Shown piece after piece: positions 1,099 to 31,600 of a DNA stretch of 64,000 nucleotides; position 1 is the stretch's first letter; every line of letters starts with the position of its first letter. The notes beneath the pieces are model-generated. The model was not told the origin of the DNA. It worked only from the letters and a program-made list of their open reading frames with translations, and did no database searches. The stretch lies in contig NC_083574.1 of assembly GCF_027579695.1 (NCBI RefSeq), forward strand, positions 47,363,059 to 47,427,058, written 5' to 3'. This stretch comes from Neoarius graeffei. Lineage: Eukaryota; Chordata; Actinopteri; Siluriformes; Ariidae. The translations under genes were made by a program, and so were the position numbers.

Positions 1099-1550
1099 AA
1101 GTTATAAACTGATTAAAATAGCTCGGGATTCAGGGGAATCTGGCAACCCATGAGGGCGGCATTTCATGGTGGACATATGGCAACTTGGTTTTGTATGGGA
1201 CTAGAACAATTGAACTCTACGTCTCTGTTCATGAAGTATTCTCACAAGAAAGTGCTTTTGTTCACACCAGGGATGAGGTTAATGGCACAGCTGGCGTTCG
1301 GTGTGCCTGTGGAAGTAGTATGAGGGTTTTTTTGCTTTTCTTGCCAAAGAAAACCCTTTGAAAATAATGTTTGAAATTCTTTGTATGAAAATGATGAGTG
1401 ACAAAGTAACTCAACCAACACACACTGGCAAGTCTAAAGCATGCAACAGTTTCATCTGTGAATCACAGTTTCAGTGTGATTAAGATTTCAATGAGCTTCG
1501 TTTATGTCTGGAAATAAACATTCAGACAGGAGATGAGTTCCTCTACTACT

Positions 1551-2784
1551 CAGAGATGGACAGTAACAAAGTACATTTACTTGAGTACTGTACTTAAGTA
1601 CACTTTTTGAGTATCTGTACTTTACTTGAGTATTATTTCTTTTGGAAACTTATGACTTTAACTTCACTACATTTGAAAGACAAATATCGTACTTTTCACT
1701 CCACTACATTTCTATCAAGGTCCTCGTTACTTGTTACTATGAAGTGGCTTTGAAAGTGGATGTTTTTTTTCTTTTCTTTTCTAAAATGTGATTGTTTTTT
1801 TCACAGGTGATACTGAGACAGCCCATCAGTAATCACTAGGGTCAGGTCACGTCCATAGACTGTATAAAATCAAGATCAATGATTTCTCCACAGCATTATT
1901 TAACATGATCAGTTGATGGCAGAGTGGAAGAAGGCAGTTCTTCTGGGGAGTGCACGCACCCATGGCCATACCTAGAACCCATGTTTCAATTTTTTGAAAG
2001 GAATAAAGAGTTATTTCATTTTAAATGCTTACTTTGTTTGCCTAAAACAAACCACATCACAACCTACAAAAACTTGCCGTCCAACCTGCGGAAGCATATT
2101 GAGGTATGTAAACATTTTATTCCAAGAGAACGCTTGTAATGAAGTTGTATGTGCTTTTAGAGCTAGCGAGAACGTTGCAATAGCTATGCAGTCTGGTTAG
2201 TCAAACGACTTTCTATGGATTTGCCCGCCAAGTTGCCATCGCCTTGTCCACGGCTAACGTTAACACATAGCTAGTTAACTTGGACACTGTTAGTTAGCAC
2301 GTAAAAACGGAGTTACGCTAACATGAATAACATTAACTTATCTGAAGTCCTTTCAGAAATATGTTTTAGCATAATCTTGTCAAATAAACAGAATGTAGAA
2401 ATCTCTCTTTTCTAGTAGTGTTAGCTACTCAATATGATTTCGAGTTTGAAAAAAAGAGTTTGCTAGCATGTCAGGTGGAGTTTCACTGACTAACTAGCTT
2501 AACGTTAAACCACCATGATGGCACAGCATGCGTTCATTTTGTGAATTCACATTTCTGTCTTTGGTAACAGCATTAGGTTTTGTAACCGTTGTGACAATAA
2601 TACAACGATGTGTTGACAGAAAATGTACTTTTAATACTTAAGTATTTTTATAAGCAAGTACTTCAGTACTTTAACTTAAGTAAAAATTTGACTGGACAAC
2701 TTTCACTTGTATCAGAGTAACATTTGACCAGTGAGATCTGTACTTTGACTTAAGTAATGAAGTTGGGTACTTTGTCCACCTCTG
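1551..2784 (+). mobile_element. hAT-like DNA transposon, internally deleted, with BED-finger exon
   Basis: The ends are imperfect inverted repeats: the left starts CAGAGATGGAC followed by AAAGTAC motifs, and the right ends GTACTTTGTCCACCTCTG. Both subterminal regions are packed with ACTTAAGTA/TACTTGAGT repeats, as in fish hAT elements. A plus-strand exon (about 1924-2105) encodes a small BED-type zinc finger (CLLC ... SNLRKHIE) and is followed by a good donor, gtatgt. No transposase core is seen, so this looks non-autonomous. Target duplications are not clear. Confidence 0.6.
1924..2105 (+). pseudogene. BED zinc-finger exon of hAT element
   Basis: A short exon starting MEEGSSSGE. It contains a CxxC pair (KCLLC) and, about 20 residues on, SNLRKHIE, the usual layout of a zBED DNA-binding domain at the N terminus of hAT transposases. 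A donor-like GAG|GTATGT closes it at 2105/2106. The catalytic exons are absent from the element, so it is treated as a remnant. Confidence 0.5.
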
Positions 2785-3220
2785 GTTAGTCTATGAAGCC
2801 TAGACTTATCTCATATTTCTAAGAGCTGTCCAGGTTCCTCATTTCAGGTCATAAAGTCAATAGGTTTGGTTGGTGAGGTAGTAACAGTCACAGATTTCCT
2901 ATGAACCATTATACCACATTCCTGTTTGCATTATTTGCATCTTACTTCTCAAAAAGTGTTGATTAGTTTTCTGAACCGGCATGGCTCCTCTACATGACTG
3001 CAGTTCAAATCAAGTTTATATTAATGTGCGTATTGTAGTAGCAGCTCATTCAGAGGGACTTGTATGGTGGATAACGGATTAAAAATGTGTTATTTAATGA
3101 GAGAAAAACTTTTTCTCAGGAACAGGAGAAAAAAAAGAGGATGGTGTGGGAATGACTGTTTATAACTGCTATAAGTGATAACAGGAAATATCTGGCCTCT
3201 CAAACATTTCACAACAAATG

Positions 3221-3752
3221 TACACTACCGTTCAAAAGTTTGGGGTCACTTTGAAATGTCCTTATTTTTGAAAGAAAAGCACTGTTCTTTTCAATGAAGA
3301 TCACTTTAAACTAATCAGAAATCCACTCTATACATTGCTAATGTGGTAAATGACTATTCTAGCTGCAAATGTCTGGTTTTTGGTGCAATATCTCCATAGG
3401 TGTATAGAGGCCCATTTCCAGCAACTCTCACTCCAGTGTTCTAATGGTACAATGTGTTTGCTCATTGCCTCAGAAGGCTAATGGATGATTAGAAAACCCT
3501 TGTACAATCATGTTAGCACAGCTGAAAACAGTTGAGCTCTTTAGAGAAGCTATAAAACTGACCTTCCTTTGAGCAGATTGAGTTTCTGGAGCATCGCATG
3601 TGTGGGGTCGATTAAATGCTCAAAATGGCCAGAAAAATGCCTCGACTATATTTTCTATTCATTTTACAACTTATGGTGGTAAATAAAAGTGTGACTTTTC
3701 ATGGAAAACACAAAATTGTCTGGGTGACCCCAAACTTTTGAACGGTAGTGTA
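3221..3752 (+). mobile_element. Tc1/mariner MITE, copy A
   Basis: A 0.53-kb non-autonomous element with near-perfect terminal inverted repeats (TACACTACCGTTCAAAAGTT at the left, its complement ending GTAGTGTA at the right) and TA at both borders. No coding potential. A second copy in opposite orientation lies at 19044-19575. Confidence 0.85.
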
Positions 3753-3885
3753 ACTAAAACATTTAAAAGCATGACCTGTTATTTATTAATAAAGCAAACC
3801 TTGTAATTGTTGGCACATTGTTGTGGTATAAGAGGAATAAAACTCTTCAGGACGTGCTGTTATTGAAAAATACAACTTCAGGGTA

Positions 3886-5245
3886 ACAATACTACCCCAC
3901 CATTGATTATTTTCCAAAAGTTTGCATACCCCAGTTAAAATTTATGTTACTGTGAATAGTTAAGCAAGTAAAACATGATCTGATTTGCAAAAGGCATAAA
4001 GTTAAAGATGACATTTCTTTAAAATAACAAAAGAGGTAAAGGGTCAGAAGCAAAGGTTAAGGCACCCTGCATGGTCAGTCCTTAGTAACACACCCTTTGG
4101 CAAGAATCACAGCTTGCAAACACTTTGTGTAGCCAGCTAATAGTCTTTTCGTTCTTGTTTGGGGGATTTTCACCCATTCTTCAAGGCTTCTATTTCTGAA
4201 AGACTCTTGCACTGCTCTTTTGAGATCTATCCACAGATTTTCAATAATGTTTAGGTCAGAGGACTGTGCGAGCCATGGCAAAACCTTCAGCCTCTTGAGG
4301 TAGTAACATTGTAGATGCTGAGGTGTGTTTAGGATCATTATCCTGCTGTAGAAGCCATCCTCTTTACATCTTCAGCTTTTTTTTTAATAGACGGTGTGAT
4401 GTTTGCTTCCAGAATTTGCTGGCATTTAATTCAATTCATTCTTCCCTCCACCAGTAAAATGTTCCCTGTACCATTGGATACAACACAAGCCCAAAGCATG
4501 ATTGATCCACCCCTGTGCTTAACAGCTGGAGAGGTGTTCATGAAATTCTGAACTTTTTCTTTCCCCTCCCAAACATACCTTTGCTCATTGCGACCAAAAA
4601 GTTCTATTTTAACTTAATCAGTCCAGTTTCCAAAATGCATCAGGCTTGTTTAGATGTTCCTTAGCAAACTTCTGACTCTGAATTTTGTGGTGGAAAGGTT
4701 TTCTTCCGATGGCTCTTCCATGAAGGTCATATTTGTTCAGATGTTGCTGTGCAGTAGAACAGTGCACCACCACTCAAGAGTCTACTAACTCTTCCTGAAG
4801 GTCTTTTGCAGTTAAACAGGCTTTTTGATTTACCTTTCTAGAAATACTTCAAGCACATCTTTCAGAAAGTTTTCTTGGTCTTCTGGACCTCAACTTGACC
4901 TCCACTGTTCCTGTTAACTGCCATTTCTTAATTACATTATGAACTAAAGAAATAGCTGCCTGAAAATGATTTGCTATCTTCTTATAGCCTTCTCCTGCTT
5001 TGTGGGCATCAAAAATTTAAATTTTCTAATAAAGTGCTAGGCAGCTTCTTAGAGGAACCCATGGGTGCTTGTGGTTGGGACAAGGTTTGAGGAGTCAGGG
5101 TATTTATAAGGCTTTGAAATTACAAGCCATAGCCCTAACAAGCTAATTAATGTGTTGGTGACCTTGTTTAAAGTCATCAGAGAGTTCAAATCTCTTGAGG
5201 TGCCAAAACTTTTGCAGTGCTGCTTTCCTTCTCTACACTCTAAAA
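3886..5245 (-). pseudogene. Decayed Tc1-like transposon
   Basis: Minus-strand sequence from about 4990 down to 4075 reads as a broken Tc1 transposase. The final part (4338-4075) holds LAQSSDLNIIENLW, equivalent to the Tc1 (A)QSPDLNPIENLW block that carries the last catalytic Glu, and ends with LAKGCVTKD like the family C terminus. Upstream blocks are interrupted by stops and frameshifts. The borders are approximate. Confidence 0.7.
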
Positions 5246-20449: not shown

Positions 20450-21206
20450 CACTGCAAAAAACTGAATTTGAGGAGAAAATTCCTTAATACTAGTGAGACT
20501 CTCTTGCTGCATGGACATAAATTTTACTTGACGAGCCATCTTGGAATAAGTTGGTTACAATCTAGAACTAGTTTTAATAATCTCAGAGTTGGCATCTTGT
20601 ATTCTTCTAATAGGAAACGCTAGATCATTTCAGCTATATTCAAGATATTCTAATTTGCTAAGATACCATTTTTGCAGTGTAGAAGAATACAAGACACCAA
20701 CTCTGATTATTAAAACTAGTTCTAGATTGTAACCAACTTATTCCAAGACGGCTCGTCAAGTAAAATTATGTCCATGCAGCAAGAGATTTTCACTTGTATT
20801 AAGGAATTTTCTCCTCAAATTCAGTTTTGGGCGGCACGGTGGTGTAGTGGTTAGCAGGTCCAGGTTCGAGCCCCGTGGCCAGTGAGGGCCTTTCTGTGCG
20901 GAGTATGCATGTTCTCCCCGTGTCCGCGTGGGTTTCCTCCGGGTGCTCCGGTTTCCCCCACAGTCCAAAGACATGCAGGTTAGGTTAACTGGTGACTCTA
21001 AATTGACCGTAGGTGTGAATGTGAGTGTGAATGGTTGTCTGTGTCTATGTGTCAGCCCTGTGATGACCTGGCGACTTGTCCAGGGTGTACCCCGCCTTTC
21101 GCCCGTAGTCAGCTGGGATAGGCTCCAGCTTGCCTGTGACCCTGTAGAACAGGATAAAGCGGCTACAGATAATGAGATGAGATGAGAAATTCAGTTTTTT
21201 GCAGTG
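20450..21206. repeat. Fold-back MITE split by a SINE
   Basis: Outer ends CACTGCAAAAAACTGAATTT (20450) and AATTCAGTTTTTTGCAGTG (to 21206) are inverted. The arms continue inward through TTCCTTAATACTAGTGAGA and ATCTAGAACTAGTTTTAAT on both sides. An additional TTTTTGCAGTG at about 20670 suggests a nested or composite structure. Confidence 0.7.
20829..21187 (+). repeat. SINE copy 7 (head deletion)
   Basis: SINE with an 11-bp target duplication (AATTCAGTTTT) at 20818-20828 and 21188-21198. About 20 bp between the A and B boxes (GCGCTGTCGCCTCACAGCAA region) are missing, so its Pol III promoter spacing is shortened. Confidence 0.92.
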
Positions 21207-21903
21207 TGAATTCCCGGCTGAGGCATCATGATGACTCCATCTTGTGATTTATTATCCCCAATCATCTGTATTACCAAGAGGAAAAATAAACGCGCGCACA
21301 CAAAAAAAAGTACAGAAATTATTTTCCACAAGTAAATAAAATTTTTCATATTTACCTTAATGCTAAGTTCATAACCAGAATATCGTCACGTATTCGTGCA
21401 CTCGAGCTTGGCTCACATCCACGCACGCCACTAGGACTAATTGTTACATGCACCCATCCCTAATCAGAGTGTAAATCAGGGCACGTGCTTAAAAGGACTC
21501 CAAACACATAAGGACTTGAAGTATACGCGCAGTACATATTGTCGGTTTAGTTACTCTGGCTCCTGACTTTATTCTGGGGGTGGGGTTCCCAAAAGCCTCT
21601 TAACGCTAAGAGCATCTTAACTAGGAGAGAGAGAGAGAGAGAGAGTGTTCATTGTGATGCTCACTCTACCATTTAACAATGATCTTTGAGCTACAATGCT
21701 TTTGGGAAACTGACACGTTTGTTTTGAGTCTGCCTTTCGTCCTATTCTCCGATACTCTATTTGCACCTCATATGACCCTTGCCTGACTAGTTGGATCTGT
21801 CTGCCTGCATGGTTCTTAAAAAAATAAAAAATAAAAATACCCACACAACTCTCTTCTTGCATTTACCTCCATTTATCTGCCTCATCAATACCAACACCTG
21901 ACA
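21207..21903. other. No gene recognised
   Basis: Sequence with a short (GA)n run at 21625-21644. No coding or RNA feature recognised. Confidence 0.35.
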
Positions 21904-22318
21904 TACAACCCCTGGCAAAAAGTATGGAATCACCAGTCTTGGATGAGCACTCATTCAGACGTTTTATTCTGTAGAACAAACTCAGATCACAAACATGATA
22001 CAATAATAAAGTCATTCCAAAGTGCAACTTCTTGGCCTTCAGAAACACTAAAATAAACGAAGAAAATACATTGTGATAGTCAGCAAATGTTACTTTTATA
22101 GACCAAGCACAGGGAAAAAAATATGGAATCACTCAATTCTGAGGAAAAAAATATGGAATCACTCAATTTTCAGGTAGAAAATAAGGACTCACCCAGTCAA
22201 TTTCCTTTCCCTAAATTGACACCTGCCTCAGATTAGATCTGCTCGTTAGTCTGCAGTTAGAAACAGCGCAGTTATCACACCTTGGAGGGCTGCTGGACCA
22301 AGTGGATTGGTAAGAATC

Positions 22319-22536
22319 ATGGCTCCAACAATAGAGATGTCTCTTGAAACAAAAGAGAGGATTGTCAAACTTCTTAAAGAAGGTAACTCTTCACGCATGG
22401 TTGCCAAAGATGTGGGCTGTTCACAGTCAGCTGTATCTAAGATATGGACCAAGTACAAACAGCATGGGAAGGTTTTTAAAGCCAAGCGTACTGGTAGACC
22501 AAGGAAGACATCAAAGCGTCAAGACAAAAAACTTAA
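22319..22536 (+). pseudogene. Tc1 transposase, N-terminal piece
   Basis: Begins MAPTIEMSLETKERIV and includes the two helix-turn-helix units of the Tc1 DNA-binding region (SSRMVAKDVGCSQSAVSKIW) and the GRPRKTS AT-hook-like linker. It is cut after KKLK by the TTAA insertion. The continuation is at 26258. Confidence 0.88.
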
Positions 22537-22821
22537 AGTGCTGATGACACGTTTTTGACATCTTTGGCGATGTTTTATAACATAAAAAGTAATTCCCGAT
22601 GATCCATATATTAATTCACGAAGGCGCCTATTTTACAAGTTATGATAAAAAACGCGGCTATTTGGGCAAATTTGACGGGGCTGCAGCACCCAGGAGACGA
22701 AGGAGGAGGAGGAGCTATATGACGTCAGCGAAAGAATCTTCCTCCTAACTTACCAGTTTGTTGTTGATGCGGCAGGTGTTCAGTTTATCATTATTAGTAT
22801 TTTTATTATACATTATTATAC

Positions 22822-22825
<4 letters not shown>

Positions 22826-22876
<51 letters not shown>
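22826..22876. repeat. (AT)n microsatellite
   Basis: About 25 AT dinucleotides just upstream of the THAP exon start. Confidence 0.95.
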
Positions 22877-22881
<5 letters not shown>

Positions 22882-22883
22882 TT

Positions 22884-23270
22884 ATGCCTTCGCGTTGTGC
22901 TGCCGGCTTTTGCTCCAAAACCTACAAGGATGGGGTAAGTTTATTCAAGTTTCCTAGAGATCCCGAGCTGCATGCGAAGTGGGTGAAGCAAGTCAGGCGC
23001 ACTCGTGACAAGTGGGAGCCCTCACCAACATCCGTCCTGTGCTCTGAACACTTCGATTTGGATTGTTTTGACACCCTTCCCAGCTTAAAGGAATCTCTTG
23101 GGTGTGCAGTTCAGCACAAACGTGTGTTACTACCATCAGCAGTGCCTACAGTATTCCGGAGGGGGTCTACTAGTAGCTATGCCGGATCCAGCAGTCGCCT
23201 GGGACAAGGCGACTCCTCCAAAGACAGTCCAACTGTCAGAACATGTGTTGAGAAACGACATAAAATAAAG
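22884..23270 (+). CDS. THAP-domain protein, first exon
   Basis: Start at MPSRCAAGFC. A complete THAP (C2CH) zinc finger spans residues 1-91: Cys5 and Cys10, Trp33, Cys53 and His56 in CSEHF, and the closing AVPTVF motif at 86-91. A Ser/Gly-rich linker follows. A consensus donor (AAG|GTACGT) at 23270/23271 ends the exon, and the frame stays open for only 26 codons beyond it, so a spliced gene is likely. THAP domains bind DNA and occur in P-element and Kolobok transposases as well as host THAP proteins. Its place 350 bp inside a TTAA element argues for a transposon protein. Downstream exons were not identified. Confidence 0.78.
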
Positions 23271-23364
23271 GTACGTAGAGCTATAGAGTGCTCCGACATG
23301 ATGCTAAAAATAGTAACCATGTGGTCTGCGCGGCCATCTTGGAAGTGACTCGCTCCAGAGTGCT

Positions 23365-23406
23365 CATAGAGTACACATCATAGAGTACACATCATAGAGT
23401 ACACAT
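23365..23406. repeat. Three 14-bp tandem units
   Basis: Three near-identical CATAGAGTACACAT units in tandem. Confidence 0.85.
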
Positions 23407-23583
23407 TCATGATAATCATAAATGTAATCATAAAGTCGGCGTGATATCAGTCATGTATTTGCTTGTGAAATCTTGTTTCTCAAAGCAAACACTGAGGGAA
23501 AGCTAACTTAGCCACACAAGTAGGCTACAGATTGTCATTTGCTTACACTGACGTAGATTATAGCCCAGGAGTAATAGGGTTAT

Positions 23584-25524
23584 ACCCGGAACAAATTAGT
23601 AACAAGCTGAAAATTTCAGAATATGTTCAGAATACCTTTAGGAATAACATACTAAAAGTCCCCGGAAATCCCCCTTGTGCTCTCTGAGAAATTCAAGATG
23701 GCGTCCAAAATGGCTGCCAAATGGAGATCTGCCCATATCTCAGGCCCAAAACAAAATATTAATGCAATTAAAAGGTCAGAATATATGTTTTGTAGGGTAG
23801 GAGAGTAAATTCCAACATGTATTAATTACATTGTGTATTAACATTATATAATAACAATGTACACATTATTATAACAGTATATTTGTGTATAATGTGTTCG
23901 CTTGCCATGTCTGGTTAGATTGTCATATTTTTGGCACTGGGAGTTTCACTAAAACCAAAAACATCATGAACTCCAAAACATTACCTTCAATCCATTATAA
24001 CAATTTATTTACATATATTGTTCATTATAACAAGAAGCTAATCCAACACAATAAATCATGGCGACTGAGTGTTCCTCAAATAATTAACCTATTTACAAGA
24101 AGACAACTGGTCACTGTTCTATAACTTTCAACTTCAACAATCAATAAATCGAACACATCAGTCAACCAGACAATCATATTTAATTGGTAGATTCATATAC
24201 CAATACATCTATCATAAATCAATCCATAAATCAATCAATCAATGCAGTCATCATCCTCATCAGATTCGGCAGAAACCGGTTCTTCAGTTTCTCCCTCATG
24301 ATCTAACAAAGATGGCATTGGTGCTGCATTCGTGCATGTTTGACCACTGCACTTTGTACACAGGGCAGAGCAGTGTACCTCCATCTTCCTGCAGCCACAT
24401 GACACTCCACAGCCATCTGCTCTGCAACCACAAGAGACCATGTTGAGCAGAGTGTCTGGAGCAATGGGGCGGTCAGTTTCAACTGGTGTCAAAATATCCT
24501 CCAGTTTCCATCCCCAATCTGTAGGCTGCAGGGGCCTTTCCATCCATTCTTGAACAGTGAGATAAGTTCTGAATGAATGTTGTTTAGCTGCAGCACTTGT
24601 TGGAGGTAAAGTTGCCAACTGGAAGGATGAGGAAAGTGGAGTTCGGCTGATTCCCTTCTTATAAGCAATGAATCGGAACTCATCCAGTGATTCACAGCTG
24701 GAACCTCCATAGAGCTTCAGGAGGAAGCGTTCACCTGCTTGTTGTACTTGCTGATGGGTATTTTCAGCATTTATGAATGTGTCAAGTTCATCATACTTCA
24801 CATTCTTCTTATGCACCAGATTGAAAGCCTTCCGCTTCCCTTGGCGATACAAAGCAGATACAGTGTCACATCCAGTTATAGCATGTAACACCATAAGATG
24901 TTTACTGGTGTTACCAATGCTGTCCTGAATGTCATTTATCCTGTATACAGTTATGGGGTTCTTGCAACATAACATATACAGGTCCATGTTTGTGGAAGCT
25001 TTTTGTCATGAAAGTCGCCGGAATGTTGAAGAAGTGTACTGAAACAGCTTGCCATTGTAGTTTTAGAAGATAGAGTTCTCAAATTTAATTTCCCTTTAAT
25101 ATTTTATCAAAGCTTAAAGATGCACTAAATATTAAGGAAATTGATGTCTAATTGTTGTCTTACATTATGTTCATGTATGTAGGTAGCCTACTAAGCTAAT
25201 CTGTCAATCATGTCAACCATCAAATTCCATGTAATTTCCACATTAATGACCTTGTAATCTTGGTTAATTTTAATTTTAACAGTGTGACAATGGTGAATTT
25301 GCATTGCTTGTATGAGAGAACATATAATTTAACATTTTAATTGCATTTATATTATGTTTTATCCCTGAGATATTGAAAAATCTCCAATCGGTGGCCATTT
25401 TGGACGCCATCTTGAATTTCTCAGAGAGCCCAAGGTGGATTCCCGGGGACTTTTAGTATGTTACTCCTAAGGGTATTCTGAACATATTCTGAAAAATTCA
25501 GCTTGTTACTAATTTGTTCCGGGT
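23584..25524. mobile_element. Inverted-repeat unit carrying the GCDT/cysteine-rich gene
   Basis: Two arms of about 170 bp (23584-23757 and 25356-25524) are near-perfect inverted copies. They share ACCCGGAACAAATTAGTAAC at the tips, then AATATGTTCAGAATACC, AACATACTAAAAGTCCCCGG and AAGATGGCGTCCAAAATGGC. They enclose the minus-strand ORF at 24987-24235. This may be a separate transposon inserted in the THAP element, or the original body of one element. No clear target duplication is seen at the arm tips. Confidence 0.65.
24235..24987 (-). CDS. GCDT-motif, cysteine-rich protein (possible FEN/PIN-like nuclease)
   Basis: A 250-residue ORF. Residues 1-50 hold a (T)xMDLYML segment and, 34 residues later, HAITGCDTVSALYRQGKRKAF. 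The spacing and the G-C-D plus glycine/lysine-rich follow-up resemble the acidic active-site strands and helical clamp of FEN1/XPG-type nucleases, but this is inference. Residues 158-160 are WGW, and 186-218 form a nine-cysteine CxCx4Cx3CxCx6Cx3CxxCx4C cluster like CXC/tesmin zinc-binding repeats. The tail is acidic. The start is uncertain: an in-frame TGA lies 8 codons upstream, and 5' exons may be missing. A homologous C-terminal half is encoded at 57485-57886. It is likely mobile-element encoded; I cannot name the family. Confidence 0.6.
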   Translation of the reverse strand: MDLYMLCCKNPITVYRINDIQDSIGNTSKHLMVLHAITGCDTVSALYRQGKRKAFNLVHKKNVKYDELDTFINAENTHQQVQQAGERFLLKLYGGSSCESLDEFRFIAYKKGISRTPLSSSFQLATLPPTSAAAKQHSFRTYLTVQEWMERPLQPTDWGWKLEDILTPVETDRPIAPDTLLNMVSCGCRADGCGVSCGCRKMEVHCSALCTKCSGQTCTNAAPMPSLLDHEGETEEPVSAESDEDDDCID

Positions 25525-25815
25525 TGGACTCAATTTTGAGCTAATGCTCTTGAGCTATTATCAAATATTTTGCTTCATTCAAGGATAAAACTAAGAAGCC
25601 ATAAACTAGAAGACGTGCCTGCCAATATTATCCTAAATGTATCACGGATCAGGCATAGTCGTAAGCTTATTATGTTAGCCGTTTGCATGCTCCATTAGGA
25701 ACTATGTATTCAGTGTAGCATACGGCTTACATGATATAAGCAGTGTTTACACATGCAAGACAACAATACACAATATTAAAATATTGATTCTGTAACATTA
25801 TTTTAATAATGTTAC

Positions 25816-26040
25816 CAACCTTGTGGTGTTCAATGCTGGGCTGTCTGCCTGTCCGCTGTCCATCTCGGGGTCGGAGTCGCTCTCAGATTGCACAGTAACA
25901 GGTTCAAACCTGTACGGTTGGATGCACCTGTGTTCGTCATCACTTGATTCTTCCAATCTATCCCACTCACAACACAATTCTAGACTCCCAGAAGAGGAAG
26001 AGCTAGAGAGTTCACCGGCGTTTTCATGTGCCATTTCCAT
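25816..26040 (-). CDS. Acidic YxFEP-motif protein, first exon
   Basis: A 75-codon exon starting MEMAHENAGE, with a Ser run (12-17), a DDEH-containing acidic stretch, IQPYRFEP at 40-47 and then SESDSDPEMDSG. It closes at a donor-like TTG|GTAACA. Fish and invertebrate genomes hold many mobile-element-associated proteins with such an acidic leader and a YxFEP block before a P2X7-C-like cysteine domain; that later domain is not visible here. The exon is divergently placed relative to the THAP exon at the other end of the TTAA element. Confidence 0.5.
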
Positions 26041-26257
26041 TGAGTAGAACAGCCAGTGAACCGCAGCGTGTTCTTCCGTTGACGTCACAACATGGCCGCG
26101 AGCCATGGACCCAGTTTTCTTGCGCTGTGCAATTAAAAGTTGGATATTCGTGTAACAACAGCTTCTTTTCACGTAATTATAACAGAAATCTAACATTTGC
26201 CATGTTGTATAGTTTATTTAAGAAATTGCATAGAGTCATGTTCGTGTCATCAGCACT

Positions 26258-27063
26258 TTAAGGCCATATGTCTTGAAAACCAAAAAAGTACAACAAAACA
26301 AATGAAGCATAAATGGGAGGAAGCTGGAGTCAATGTACAAGTATGTGACCGAACTGTGAGAAATCACCTAAAGGAAATGGGATTTTCATATAGGAAAGCT
26401 AAAAGAAAACCATCATTGACACCTAAACAGAAAAGAACAAGACTACAATGGGCTAAGGAGAAGCAATCATGGACTGTGGATGACTGGATGAAAGTTATCT
26501 TCAATGATGAATCACGAATCTGCATTGGACAAGGTGATGATGCTGGAACTTTTGTTTGGTGCCGTTCCAGTGAGATTTATGAAGAGGACTGCCTGAAGAA
26601 AACATCCAAATTTCCACAATCCTTGATGATATGGGGCTGCATGTCAGGCAAAGGCACTGGGGAGATGGCTGTGGTTACTTCTTCAATAAATGCACAGGTT
26701 TACATTGACATTTTGGACAGTTTTCTTATCCCTTCAATTGAAAAGATGTTTGGGGATGAGGAAATAATTTTCCAAGATGACAATGCATCGTGCCATAGAG
26801 CAAAAACTGTGAAAGCATTCCTTGGTGAAAGACACATCCAGTCATGGCCTGCAAATAGTCCAGATCTCAACCCAATAGAAAACTTGTGGTGGAAATTGAA
26901 AAAATGGTCCACGACAAGGCTCCGGCCTGCAAAGCTGATCTGGCAACTGCAATCAGAGAGTTGGCACCAGATTGATGAAGAATACTGTTTGTCACTCATC
27001 AAGTCCATGCCTAAGAGACTGCGAGCCGTTATAAAAGCCAGAGGTGGCGCAACTAAGTACTAG
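26258..27063 (+). pseudogene. Tc1 transposase, C-terminal piece
   Basis: Continues the transposase after the TTAA insertion. It contains KVIFNDESRI (first catalytic Asp), the QDDNASCHRAK block (second Asp) and WPANSPDLNPIENLWW (Glu), and ends ARGGATKY. Between about 26901 and 26960 the frame reads an atypical STTRLRPAKLIWQLQ stretch, while the +1 frame there reads the family-like HDKAPACKADLATAI, so two compensating indels have scrambled about 20 residues. Confidence 0.88.
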
Positions 27064-27336
27064 TGATGTGTTTTGAATGTTCTTTTGTTTGTCTGTTTTT
27101 CATGATTCCATATTTTTTTCCCTGTGCTTGGTCTATAAAAGTAACAATTACTGACTTCCACAATGCTTTTTCTTCATTTCTTTTAGTGTTTCTGAAGGCC
27201 AAGAAGTTGCACTTTGGAATGACTTTATTATTGTATCATGTTTGTGATCTGAGTTTGTTCTACAGAATAAAACGTCTGAATGAGTGGTCATTCAAGACTG
27301 GTGATTGCATACTTTTTGCCAGGGGTTGTATTACAG

Positions 27337-28610: not shown

Positions 28611-31600
28611 CTGGACAGAAGAAGAGAGTGGGTGAGAGACATAGAAAGACCAAAGAAAAGAGAGGATGACTCCTCAGTATGTAATAACTAAAACACAGGC
28701 TGTTAGACTGAAAGTACTGGATGAACCATCCTCTGTGCCAAGTAGCAAGTCATCACTTTCTACGATAGTGATATTCAAAAAACAAGTCTCAACAAGAAGA
28801 CAGTAATCTCTATCCCCTGCCCTATATACCAAGTTTCAAGTTCTGCTGCAGGAAACCAACCCTACCTCTTTACACGGACCTCAGCAGCCCATGGCATAAA
28901 CCCACCAGACCGTTGGTCCAGGTGAGCTAAAAATTAAAATCTCTCACATTTCTTAGTATCAAAAGGCACATATACATTACTTAATCAACACATATACCAA
29001 CTTTCAAGACCATACCACTCAGTTTTGAAGTTCTGCTCTGGAAACAAAACCTACCCCTAAAACTAACCTGAGAGACTAAGTCTGAAATTGTTTCCATGGA
29101 AACTCATCTCATCTCATTATCTGTAGCCGCTTTATCCTGTTCTACAGGGTCGCAGGCGAGCTGGAGCCCATCCCAGCTGACTACGGGCGAAAGGCGGGGT
29201 ACACCCTGGACAAGTCGCCAGGTCATCACAGGGCCGAAACATAGACACAGACAACCATCTACACTCACATTCACACCTACGGTCAATTTAGAGTCACCAG
29301 TTAACCTAACCTGCATGTCTTTGGACTGTGGGGGAAACCGGAGCACCCGGAGGAAACCCACGCGGACACGGGGAGAACATGCAAACTCCGCACAGAAAGG
29401 CCCTCGCCGGCCACGGGGCTCGAACCCGGACCTTCTTGCTGTGAGGCGACAGCACTAACCACTACACCACCGTGCCGCCCTTCCATGGAAACATGAATTA
29501 AAATCTCAAATGTTAGTATGAAAAGGCACATCTACTGTACATCACCTTGTTAACATGTATACCAAGTTCCAAATCCAGATCATGAATAGTTTTGGATATA
29601 TGCTCCGGAAACAAACATTGCTCTTAGAAACTAAGTCAAAATTATTTTTTTTTTAAATGTAAAAATTTGAATAATACTTTTTTTCAAAAATCCAAATTAG
29701 CAAAAGGCACCAGTTCACATGTTCCTTGATATATTATATACACAAAAGTTTCATGAAGATATCTTCAGTAGTTTTAAAAGATCTCATCTCATCTCATTAT
29801 CTCTATCCACTTTATCCTGTCCTACAGGGTCGCAGGCAAGCTGGAGCCTATCCCAGCTGACTACGGGCAAAAGGCGGGGTACACCCTGGACAAGTCGCCA
29901 GGTCATCACAGGGCTGACACATAGACACAGACAACCATTCACACTCACATTCACACCTACGGTCAATTTAGAGTCACCAGTTAACCTAACCTGCATGTCT
30001 TTGGACTGTGGGGGAAACCGGAGCACCCGGAGGAAACCCACGCGGACACGGGGAGAACATGCAAACCCCGCACAGAAAGGCCCTCGCCGGCCACAGGGCT
30101 CGAACCCGGACCTTCTTGCTGTGAGGCGACAGCGCTAACCACTACACCACCGTGCCGCCCCAGTTTTAAAAGATATGACCTGGAAATGAAGACATGACTG
30201 GATGGACAGCCAGCTGGATGGACGGAAGGAACCAGTTTCTATATCCCTCACCAAACTTAATTTGGGCGGGGGGATAACAATTTGGCAACAGCCTCGGCCA
30301 AAGACCTTAAATTGTAATGGGAAACTCAAGATGCTTTGACCAAACATCTATACTTTAAATTCTTTCGACTGATCCATTCCCTTTAGTACGGTCATTCTGC
30401 TGTAACGGACCTGAACTGCACTCGGCCATCTCTTGGGTGGTTGCAAAAGATAAGGCATATTTTGTTCAAAGCTTCCATGCATGACAAGTAGATGAAGAAA
30501 AAGTTTGAGATGAGTTTTTATGAGATCACCTTCAGTGAATTTATGGAGGTTTTGGTACACAGAAAGCTAAAATAGAACACCAAAACATACTGGAAAGATG
30601 CACAGTATCTGGGCGGCACGGTGGTGTAGTGGTTAGCACTGTCGCCTCACAGCAAGAAGGTTCTGGGTTCGAGCCCAGCGGCTGGCGAGGGCCTTTCTGT
30701 GTGGAGTTTGCATGTTCTCCCCGTGGCTGTGTGGGTTTCCTCCGGGTGCTCCGGTTTCCCCCACAGTCCAAAGACATGCAGGTTAGGTTAACTGGTGACT
30801 CTAAATTGACCGTAGGTGTGAATGTGAGTGTGAATGGTTGTCTGTGTCTATGTGTCAGCCCTGTGATGACCTGGCGACTTGTCCAGGGTGTACCCTGCCT
30901 TTCGCCCGTAGTCAGCTGGGATAGGCTCCAGCTCGCCTGCGACCCTGTAGAACAGGATAAAGCGGCTAGAGATAATGGATAGATACACAGTATCTCACGC
31001 ATCTGTGCATGGCAGCAAAAAATAAATAAAATAAACCCAACACAAGGGTGGGGAAGGAGGGAGAGAGAGAGAGAGAGAGAGAGTGTGCAGGAAATAATAC
31101 ATGGAGGCTGGGTTGACATGCGTGCCTGTATGATACGACTTCATCATGCTACCGTACCATCACAGGCAGAAACTGGAAAAACACCGTTCCTATAACCGGA
31201 GCCGAGTGTGTGGTACAGGGTGTTTCAAAAAAATTTGATATTAGAGATGTAAATATCCCAGAATATCATCAAATTTTCTGAAAACACCCTGTATTTCAAG
31301 GGTGAGCAGCACACAGGGTACTTCACTCTACCAGATCCAGCAAGGCTAACGAGGGGGAGGGGGCGCATCTCCAAAATACTGGCAATTTTCAAGGTCATGT
31401 TACAGTGCAAGCACCTACGCTCTAACGATTATTTTTGTACAGAATGAGAAAATAAATCCCAACTGCAACTGTGCAAGCAACATTATAAAAATCACAACAT
31501 GCATGCCTGACTTCACTGTTAACAAAGGATTCACAGTGCATTAAACAAGTCAAGTCCACCACTTACGTTTCCATTGCTCCAGTGACTGCTCAGCATTGTC

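Follow-up and report, generated by a model that had tools for sequence, protein, structure and literature searches.

An internally deleted DNA transposon, probably of the AcademX type, carries part of a gene for a likely FEN/XPG-like nuclease in the catfish Neoarius graeffei

Which kind of genetic element brings together a GCDT motif, reminiscent of FEN/XPG nucleases, and a cluster of cysteines spaced as in CXC repeats? The question is raised by a short open reading frame in the 64,000-nucleotide stretch of Neoarius graeffei DNA analysed here (contig NC_083574.1; in the following "the window"), which the original prediction had read as a protein of a DNA element, possibly a nuclease or recombination factor. 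The frame lies on the minus strand, which had been left unstated, and extends over 24235-25005 including the stop codon at 24235-24237, that is, 256 codons from stop to stop; counted from the Met at 24985-24987 it encodes the 250 residues claimed before. HAITGCDT (24862-24885), WGW (24508-24516) and the nine-cysteine, CXC-like cluster CGCRADGCGVSCGCRKMEVHCSALCTKCSGQTC (24334-24432) were found as described, GKRKAF (24823-24840) and an LPPT motif accompany them, and all are read from the minus strand. On the plus strand, the same region is interrupted by many stops, and when the element was resampled 500 times under a first-order Markov model, the longest open frame reached 191 codons. Searches of Pfam, NCBIfam and PDB gave no match to this frame, and its single-sequence AlphaFold model has a mean pLDDT of 32.5. 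When copies were sought in the genome itself (2.34 Gb in 38 contigs), the protein proved to be dispersed: all 150 places scored, from 782 candidates, matched, and the frame is therefore a member of a repeat family.

The boundaries of the repeat can be read directly from the DNA. The element, with its gene on the minus strand, occupies 23561-25557 (1,997 bp), starts with TAGCCC, ends with GAGCTA and is flanked by the trinucleotide TTA on the left (23558-23560) as well as on the right (25558-25560), as expected of a 3-bp target-site duplication. Its terminal inverted repeats match best at 23584-23789 and 25319-25524, over 206 bp at 88% identity (217 bp at 87% in another comparison), and comparison among copies extends both arms out to 23561 and 25557; they do flank the reading frame as had been noted, being longer than the 170 bp then given. 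Fourteen close copies were taken as 10-kb stretches (L022-L035); apart from one end of L034, they all cease to resemble the window at 23561 and 25557, give or take a few bases. Both ends are thus present in 13 of the 14, L034 lacking one, and what the search returned were copies with arms rather than single-copy genes without them. An identical 3-bp duplication surrounds 11 of the 14 two-ended copies, the window counted in (L023, L024 and L035 show none), and all of six further copies found via the arm, which amounts to 17 of 20 two-ended copies, again including the window. Common ends together with target duplications rule out that the arms are chance or intron repeats. The element in the window is a separate DNA transposon with the arms as its terminal inverted repeats, and the reading frame, bounded by them, is carried by a DNA element as predicted.

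A search of the same genome with the arm yielded 984 candidates, the best 40 of which are all identical (100%, rounded) over 239-240 bases; this indicates that at least these 40 copies spread recently, and the transposon family was probably active until recently. The 88% identity between the two arms of the window copy should not be taken as a measure of age, because the two ends of the family differ likewise in other copies.

The copy in the window is not a complete one. The longest of the close-family copies retrieved, L022 (C23:42704570-42709169), measures 4,600 bp, and the window aligns to its gene-sense positions 1-525 and 3156-4600, so that about 2.6 kb are missing at a junction located at 24999-25001. 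L022 contains two reading frames of 620 and 369 codons, the gene being broken between frames; the C-terminal one is 97% identical to that of the window, and the copy further encodes a long N-terminal region and upstream FEN/XPG-like motifs, both absent from the window. Exactly the same deletion breakpoint was observed in L023 and L033, and another common junction, at 511/3567, is found in L028-L031. Identical junctions at different insertion sites imply that the deleted forms themselves moved, for which the enzyme would have been supplied in trans. Using the N-terminal frame of L022 as query, 77 matches were obtained among the 71 places scored of 173 candidates, including one close-family piece on C18 (82%), the others being distant. 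Among the distant relatives, L038 contains a single frame of 1,322 codons, and its comparison with L040 gave a dN/dS of 0.14 over 642 codons; within families, the ratio ranges from 0.4 to 1.8 and is based on few differences. A second L038 frame of 626 codons, located downstream (L038:8039-9916), may encode a Helitron-type protein, judging from its look. Neither repeat comparisons nor copy comparisons revealed the ends of the distant families.

In the aligned members, the motifs follow each other in the order DG, FDRY...SIK, HEEAD, DTDV, HAxTGCDT, GKGK, LPPT, GW and cysteine tail, as far as the length of each copy allows, though not without exceptions: L045, which has a long open frame, contains DTN in place of DTD, and GCN replaces GCD in L048 and L049. 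An alignment of the core of eight members left DG, D-x-Y...S-x-K, HEE-x-D, DT and GC as invariant columns. L022 itself displays VLDGG, VFDGY, QADADA, GTDTDLL and GCDT, distributed over two frames, and we take this series, as well as that of its relatives, to represent the FEN/XPG order. While the ordered acidic active-site motifs are present in the relatives, the window copy keeps the last one only; DTD, the preceding EAD-type motif, DG and FDRY were lost with the deletion at about 25000. The DLYML segment is not the acidic strand: that strand is DTD, seen in longer relatives only. Since the deletion removed the upstream motifs, the reading frame in the window is a fragment and not an intact nuclease, and with the transposase region and most acidic residues gone, the copy is very likely inert.

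How far does the likeness to FEN/XPG nucleases reach beyond the motifs? The Pfam family XPG_I aligned with L022 over positions 2-89 of 89 at E 0.0033 and 18.2 bits, below the cut-off of 24.9, L022 being the one match among ten I-regions of the family. None of the eight core sequences matched XPG_I, their best Pfam match being Dis3l2_C_term (E 0.016), and none of the six XPG_I matches in the genome (from nine candidates) falls on the listed GCDT places. Compared with PDB, the core profile gave no significant match; EXO1 came first (E 0.17, in two co-linear segments) and accounted for four of the five matches, the fifth being an unrelated protein at E 0.26. A shorter profile, not significant either, placed two unrelated proteins (E 1.1) ahead of EXO1 (E 1.4). 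The best support for the link stems from a profile-profile comparison (hhalign) of the ten I-regions with exons of the same genome, which we take to be FEN1-, GEN1- and XPG-like: a single alignment of 113 columns was obtained with a score of 28.5, an E-value of 2.3e-5 (for a single comparison) and a probability of 51%, a score reached by none of 100 column shuffles (best 14.7) and far from that of the reversed profile (2.3). Based on motif order and hhalign score, a FEN/XPG-like domain in the family is likely, the link falling short of proof, and GCDT is most likely its last acidic motif, in agreement with the original prediction.

The cysteine tail has likewise turned out as foreseen, namely CXC-like, judging from its relatives. 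Two of the five proteins scanned matched Pfam TCR just below its cut-off of 23.5 bits (L036 with E 2.4e-4 and 21.7 bits, L038 with E 9e-4 and 19.9 bits); the tail of the window copy gave no match to TCR at E 10.

To which superfamily does such an element belong? The N-terminal regions of the longer relatives lead to DUF6589, listed by Pfam as a domain of unknown function. It was matched by L045 (E 3.6e-5) and L044 (E 0.051), both under the cut-off, and not by the other four of the six members scanned. Across the genome, DUF6589 has 14 matches (all 29 candidates scored), 12 of them over the cut-off, and two of these lie upstream of a GCDT match on the same strand, by 1.6 kb on C9 (83433490) and by 1.2 kb on C3 (16905838). 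At a further locus, L063 (C13:31225400-31230400), a frame with DUF6589 (1101-2084, plus strand, E 3.3e-25) is located beside one with Helicase_C on the other strand (3582-4508, minus, E 5.5e-16), which suggests an AcademH-like locus and thereby a function for DUF6589. Direct comparison of our family with the helicase-linked frame gave a weak similarity, E 0.002-0.0025 in one pair.

AcademX elements contain a nuclease of the XPG type. In the accessible part of the published description, AcademX is stated to encode a nuclease and to generate target duplications of 3 or 4 bp (PMC10045372), AcademH being the group encoding a helicase, as the available portions of two articles have it (PMC10045372, PMC10799480). 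The window's own family combines 3-bp duplications and terminal inverted repeats with a likely nuclease instead of a helicase. The simplest reading, taken from published descriptions rather than reference sequences, is that DUF6589 probably represents the Academ transposase region and that this family is probably AcademX; the earlier statement that the layout fits no standard transposase class is then probably wrong, as nuclease plus duplications of 3 or 4 bp is how AcademX is characterised in the accessible part of PMC10045372. Our literature search returned no paper with any of five GCDT motif strings or with DUF6589, and the portions of text it covered describe neither an XPG nor a CXC domain for Academ. 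We consider it quite probable that the element in the window is an Academ-type DNA transposon, for which AcademX is the best placement, and that this copy, with its internal deletion, is non-autonomous. The proposal of a nuclease with CXC-like tail is largely right for the family, the kind of element probably being a known one and the window copy a fragment.

An element of the same kind standing outside Academ, that is, a new superfamily with another transposase and a FEN-like nuclease, appears unlikely, though it is the strongest of the competing explanations. It draws on the very basis of the Academ placement, descriptions rather than reference sequences, on the N-terminal alignment, which revealed no DDE catalytic triad, and on the DUF6589 scores of the scanned members, all below the cut-off where a match was found. 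It has to contend with the over-cut-off DUF6589 matches upstream of GCDT on C9 and C3, the union of DUF6589 and helicase at L063, and duplications of 3 bp as in AcademX, so far as the text of PMC10045372 is accessible.

Following the AcademX reading, the longer relatives would produce one long protein composed of a DUF6589-like, putative transposase region, a FEN/XPG-like nuclease and a CXC-like tail, and the full-length protein is expected to act as transposase and structure-specific nuclease. The transposase region may recognise the inverted ends of about 200 bp and perform the strand transfer; the FEN-like, presumably metal-dependent domain may trim or cleave flap-like or branched intermediates at these ends, and the cysteine tail could bind zinc and help to hold the DNA. 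Insertion would leave the 3-bp duplications. The copy in the window, having lost about 2.6 kb, probably provides no active enzyme and may have been mobilised in trans by a longer relative. A different division of labour, in which cutting is done by the FEN-like nuclease instead of a DDE domain, the CXC tail serves as DNA clamp and the DUF6589-like region binds the ends without being catalytic, seems very improbable to us; if it were true, a large group of transposons would move by flap-endonuclease chemistry.

Slightly less probable still is that the frame belongs to a domesticated host gene, or that the deleted copy encodes a functional regulator. A frame of 256 codons has stayed open, the form with the same breakpoint occurs at three places, and the dN/dS between window and L022 is 0.52, a value derived from only about 10 differences; against this stand the dispersal of the repeats over different insertion sites, the deletion of most acidic motifs, and several sister copies with stops or frame breaks.

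The surroundings of the element consist of three stacked transposons, the Academ-like one residing in a Kolobok-type element, and the latter in a Tc1-like one. The Kolobok-type element (22537-26257, plus strand, 3,721 bp) has perfect ends of 15 bp, which occur nowhere else in the window, is flanked by TTAA at 22533-22536 and 26258-26261, and is interrupted by the Academ-like element. Its left part contains a THAP-domain exon (22884-23270, plus strand, Pfam THAP E 1.5e-16), followed by the splice-donor-like GTACGT, and its right part the first exon of a second gene (25819-26106, minus strand), which we take to be KolX-like, KolX being a protein with a ballast fold. Only this first exon of the KolX-like gene was found; all 150 places scored matched it, and the 4,796 candidate places reveal a very abundant family. 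A second Kolobok-type copy, L051, likewise has TTAA at both ends. Kolobok elements are known for TTAA, 5'-RR ends and a layout with two proteins, according to the accessible part of PMC9587614, and for a THAP domain in the transposase gene, according to that of PMC6004289; TTAA duplication, 5'-RR ends and THAP domain were all found in the surrounding element. The Kolobok-type insertion split a Tc1-like gene, the N-terminal part of which (22250-22532, plus strand) matches helix-turn-helix families, for example HTH_29 (E 6.8e-7), and the C-terminal, DDE part of which (26262-27063, plus strand) matches Pfam HTH_Tnp_Tc3_2 and DDE_3; the arms of the Tc1-like element are located at 21898-22151 and 27083-27336. 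Elsewhere in the window, a dispersed repeat of about 220-330 bp is found at 20853-21186, 29103-29436 and 29783-30000 (95-97% identity, one copy inverted), and neighbouring inverted repeats at 20458-20828 (67 nt at 94% and 63 nt at 98%) may constitute a short foldback element.

The nesting also provides an empty site: a query joining both flanks of the Academ-like element with one TTA matched all 40 Kolobok copies scored (424 candidates), covering all its 297 bases at 98%, and such uninterrupted copies show that TTA was the site at which the Academ-like element inserted into a Kolobok copy. The GCDT gene has the THAP exon on one side and, on the other, the KolX-like exon, with which it shares the orientation. 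That it could be an accessory gene of the surrounding Kolobok-type element is refuted by these empty sites and keeps practically no probability, the more so as the gene lies within terminal repeats and a 3-bp duplication of its own and the window's Kolobok parts found no match in any of the 14 close copies.

Outside this genome, IMG/VR contained no protein relative and no match to the first motif pattern or the arm pattern. The second motif pattern matched once in IMG/VR, and 12 motif matches were obtained from GTDB genomes; these 13 loci are chance matches, as tblastn gave nothing better than E 0.10 and, for L010, no match. No match was obtained in plasmids.

With the Academ-type reading, an unexplained open reading frame finds its place in a transposon family whose ends are clearly defined. 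Three subjects come together in this family: the proteins with GCDT and CXC that recur in this genome, the fusion of a FEN/XPG-like nuclease with a transposon protein, and Pfam DUF6589. A role of a flap-type nuclease in cut-and-paste transposition can now be phrased as a testable question, for example with regard to the processing of one strand at the ends or to the stagger of 3 bp.

Compared with known systems, the surrounding element agrees with Kolobok of the Kol0 type in TTAA, AG ends, THAP exon and a second gene in opposite orientation, the GCDT gene being no part of it. The tail shares the C-x-C spacing with the CXC or tesmin/TSO1-like repeat (Pfam TCR), to which the window copy itself remains unmatched. 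AcademX, as far as the accessible text of PMC10045372 goes, is similar in joining a nuclease and a putative transposase in one protein and in its 3-bp duplications; the window copy differs by its deletion, and that part of the article makes no mention of a CXC-like tail. The DUF6589-like N-terminal region is common to our family and the helicase-linked, AcademH-like locus. The superfamily of FEN1, EXO1, XPG and GEN1, finally, resembles the transposon family in the order of the acidic motifs and in the stretch GCD-x-x-S...G-x-K, and differs in that the domain is here fused to a transposon protein, with weak sequence similarity, and in the motif itself, the transposon family having GCDT or GCDS, whereas the host exons reaching this motif have GCDY.
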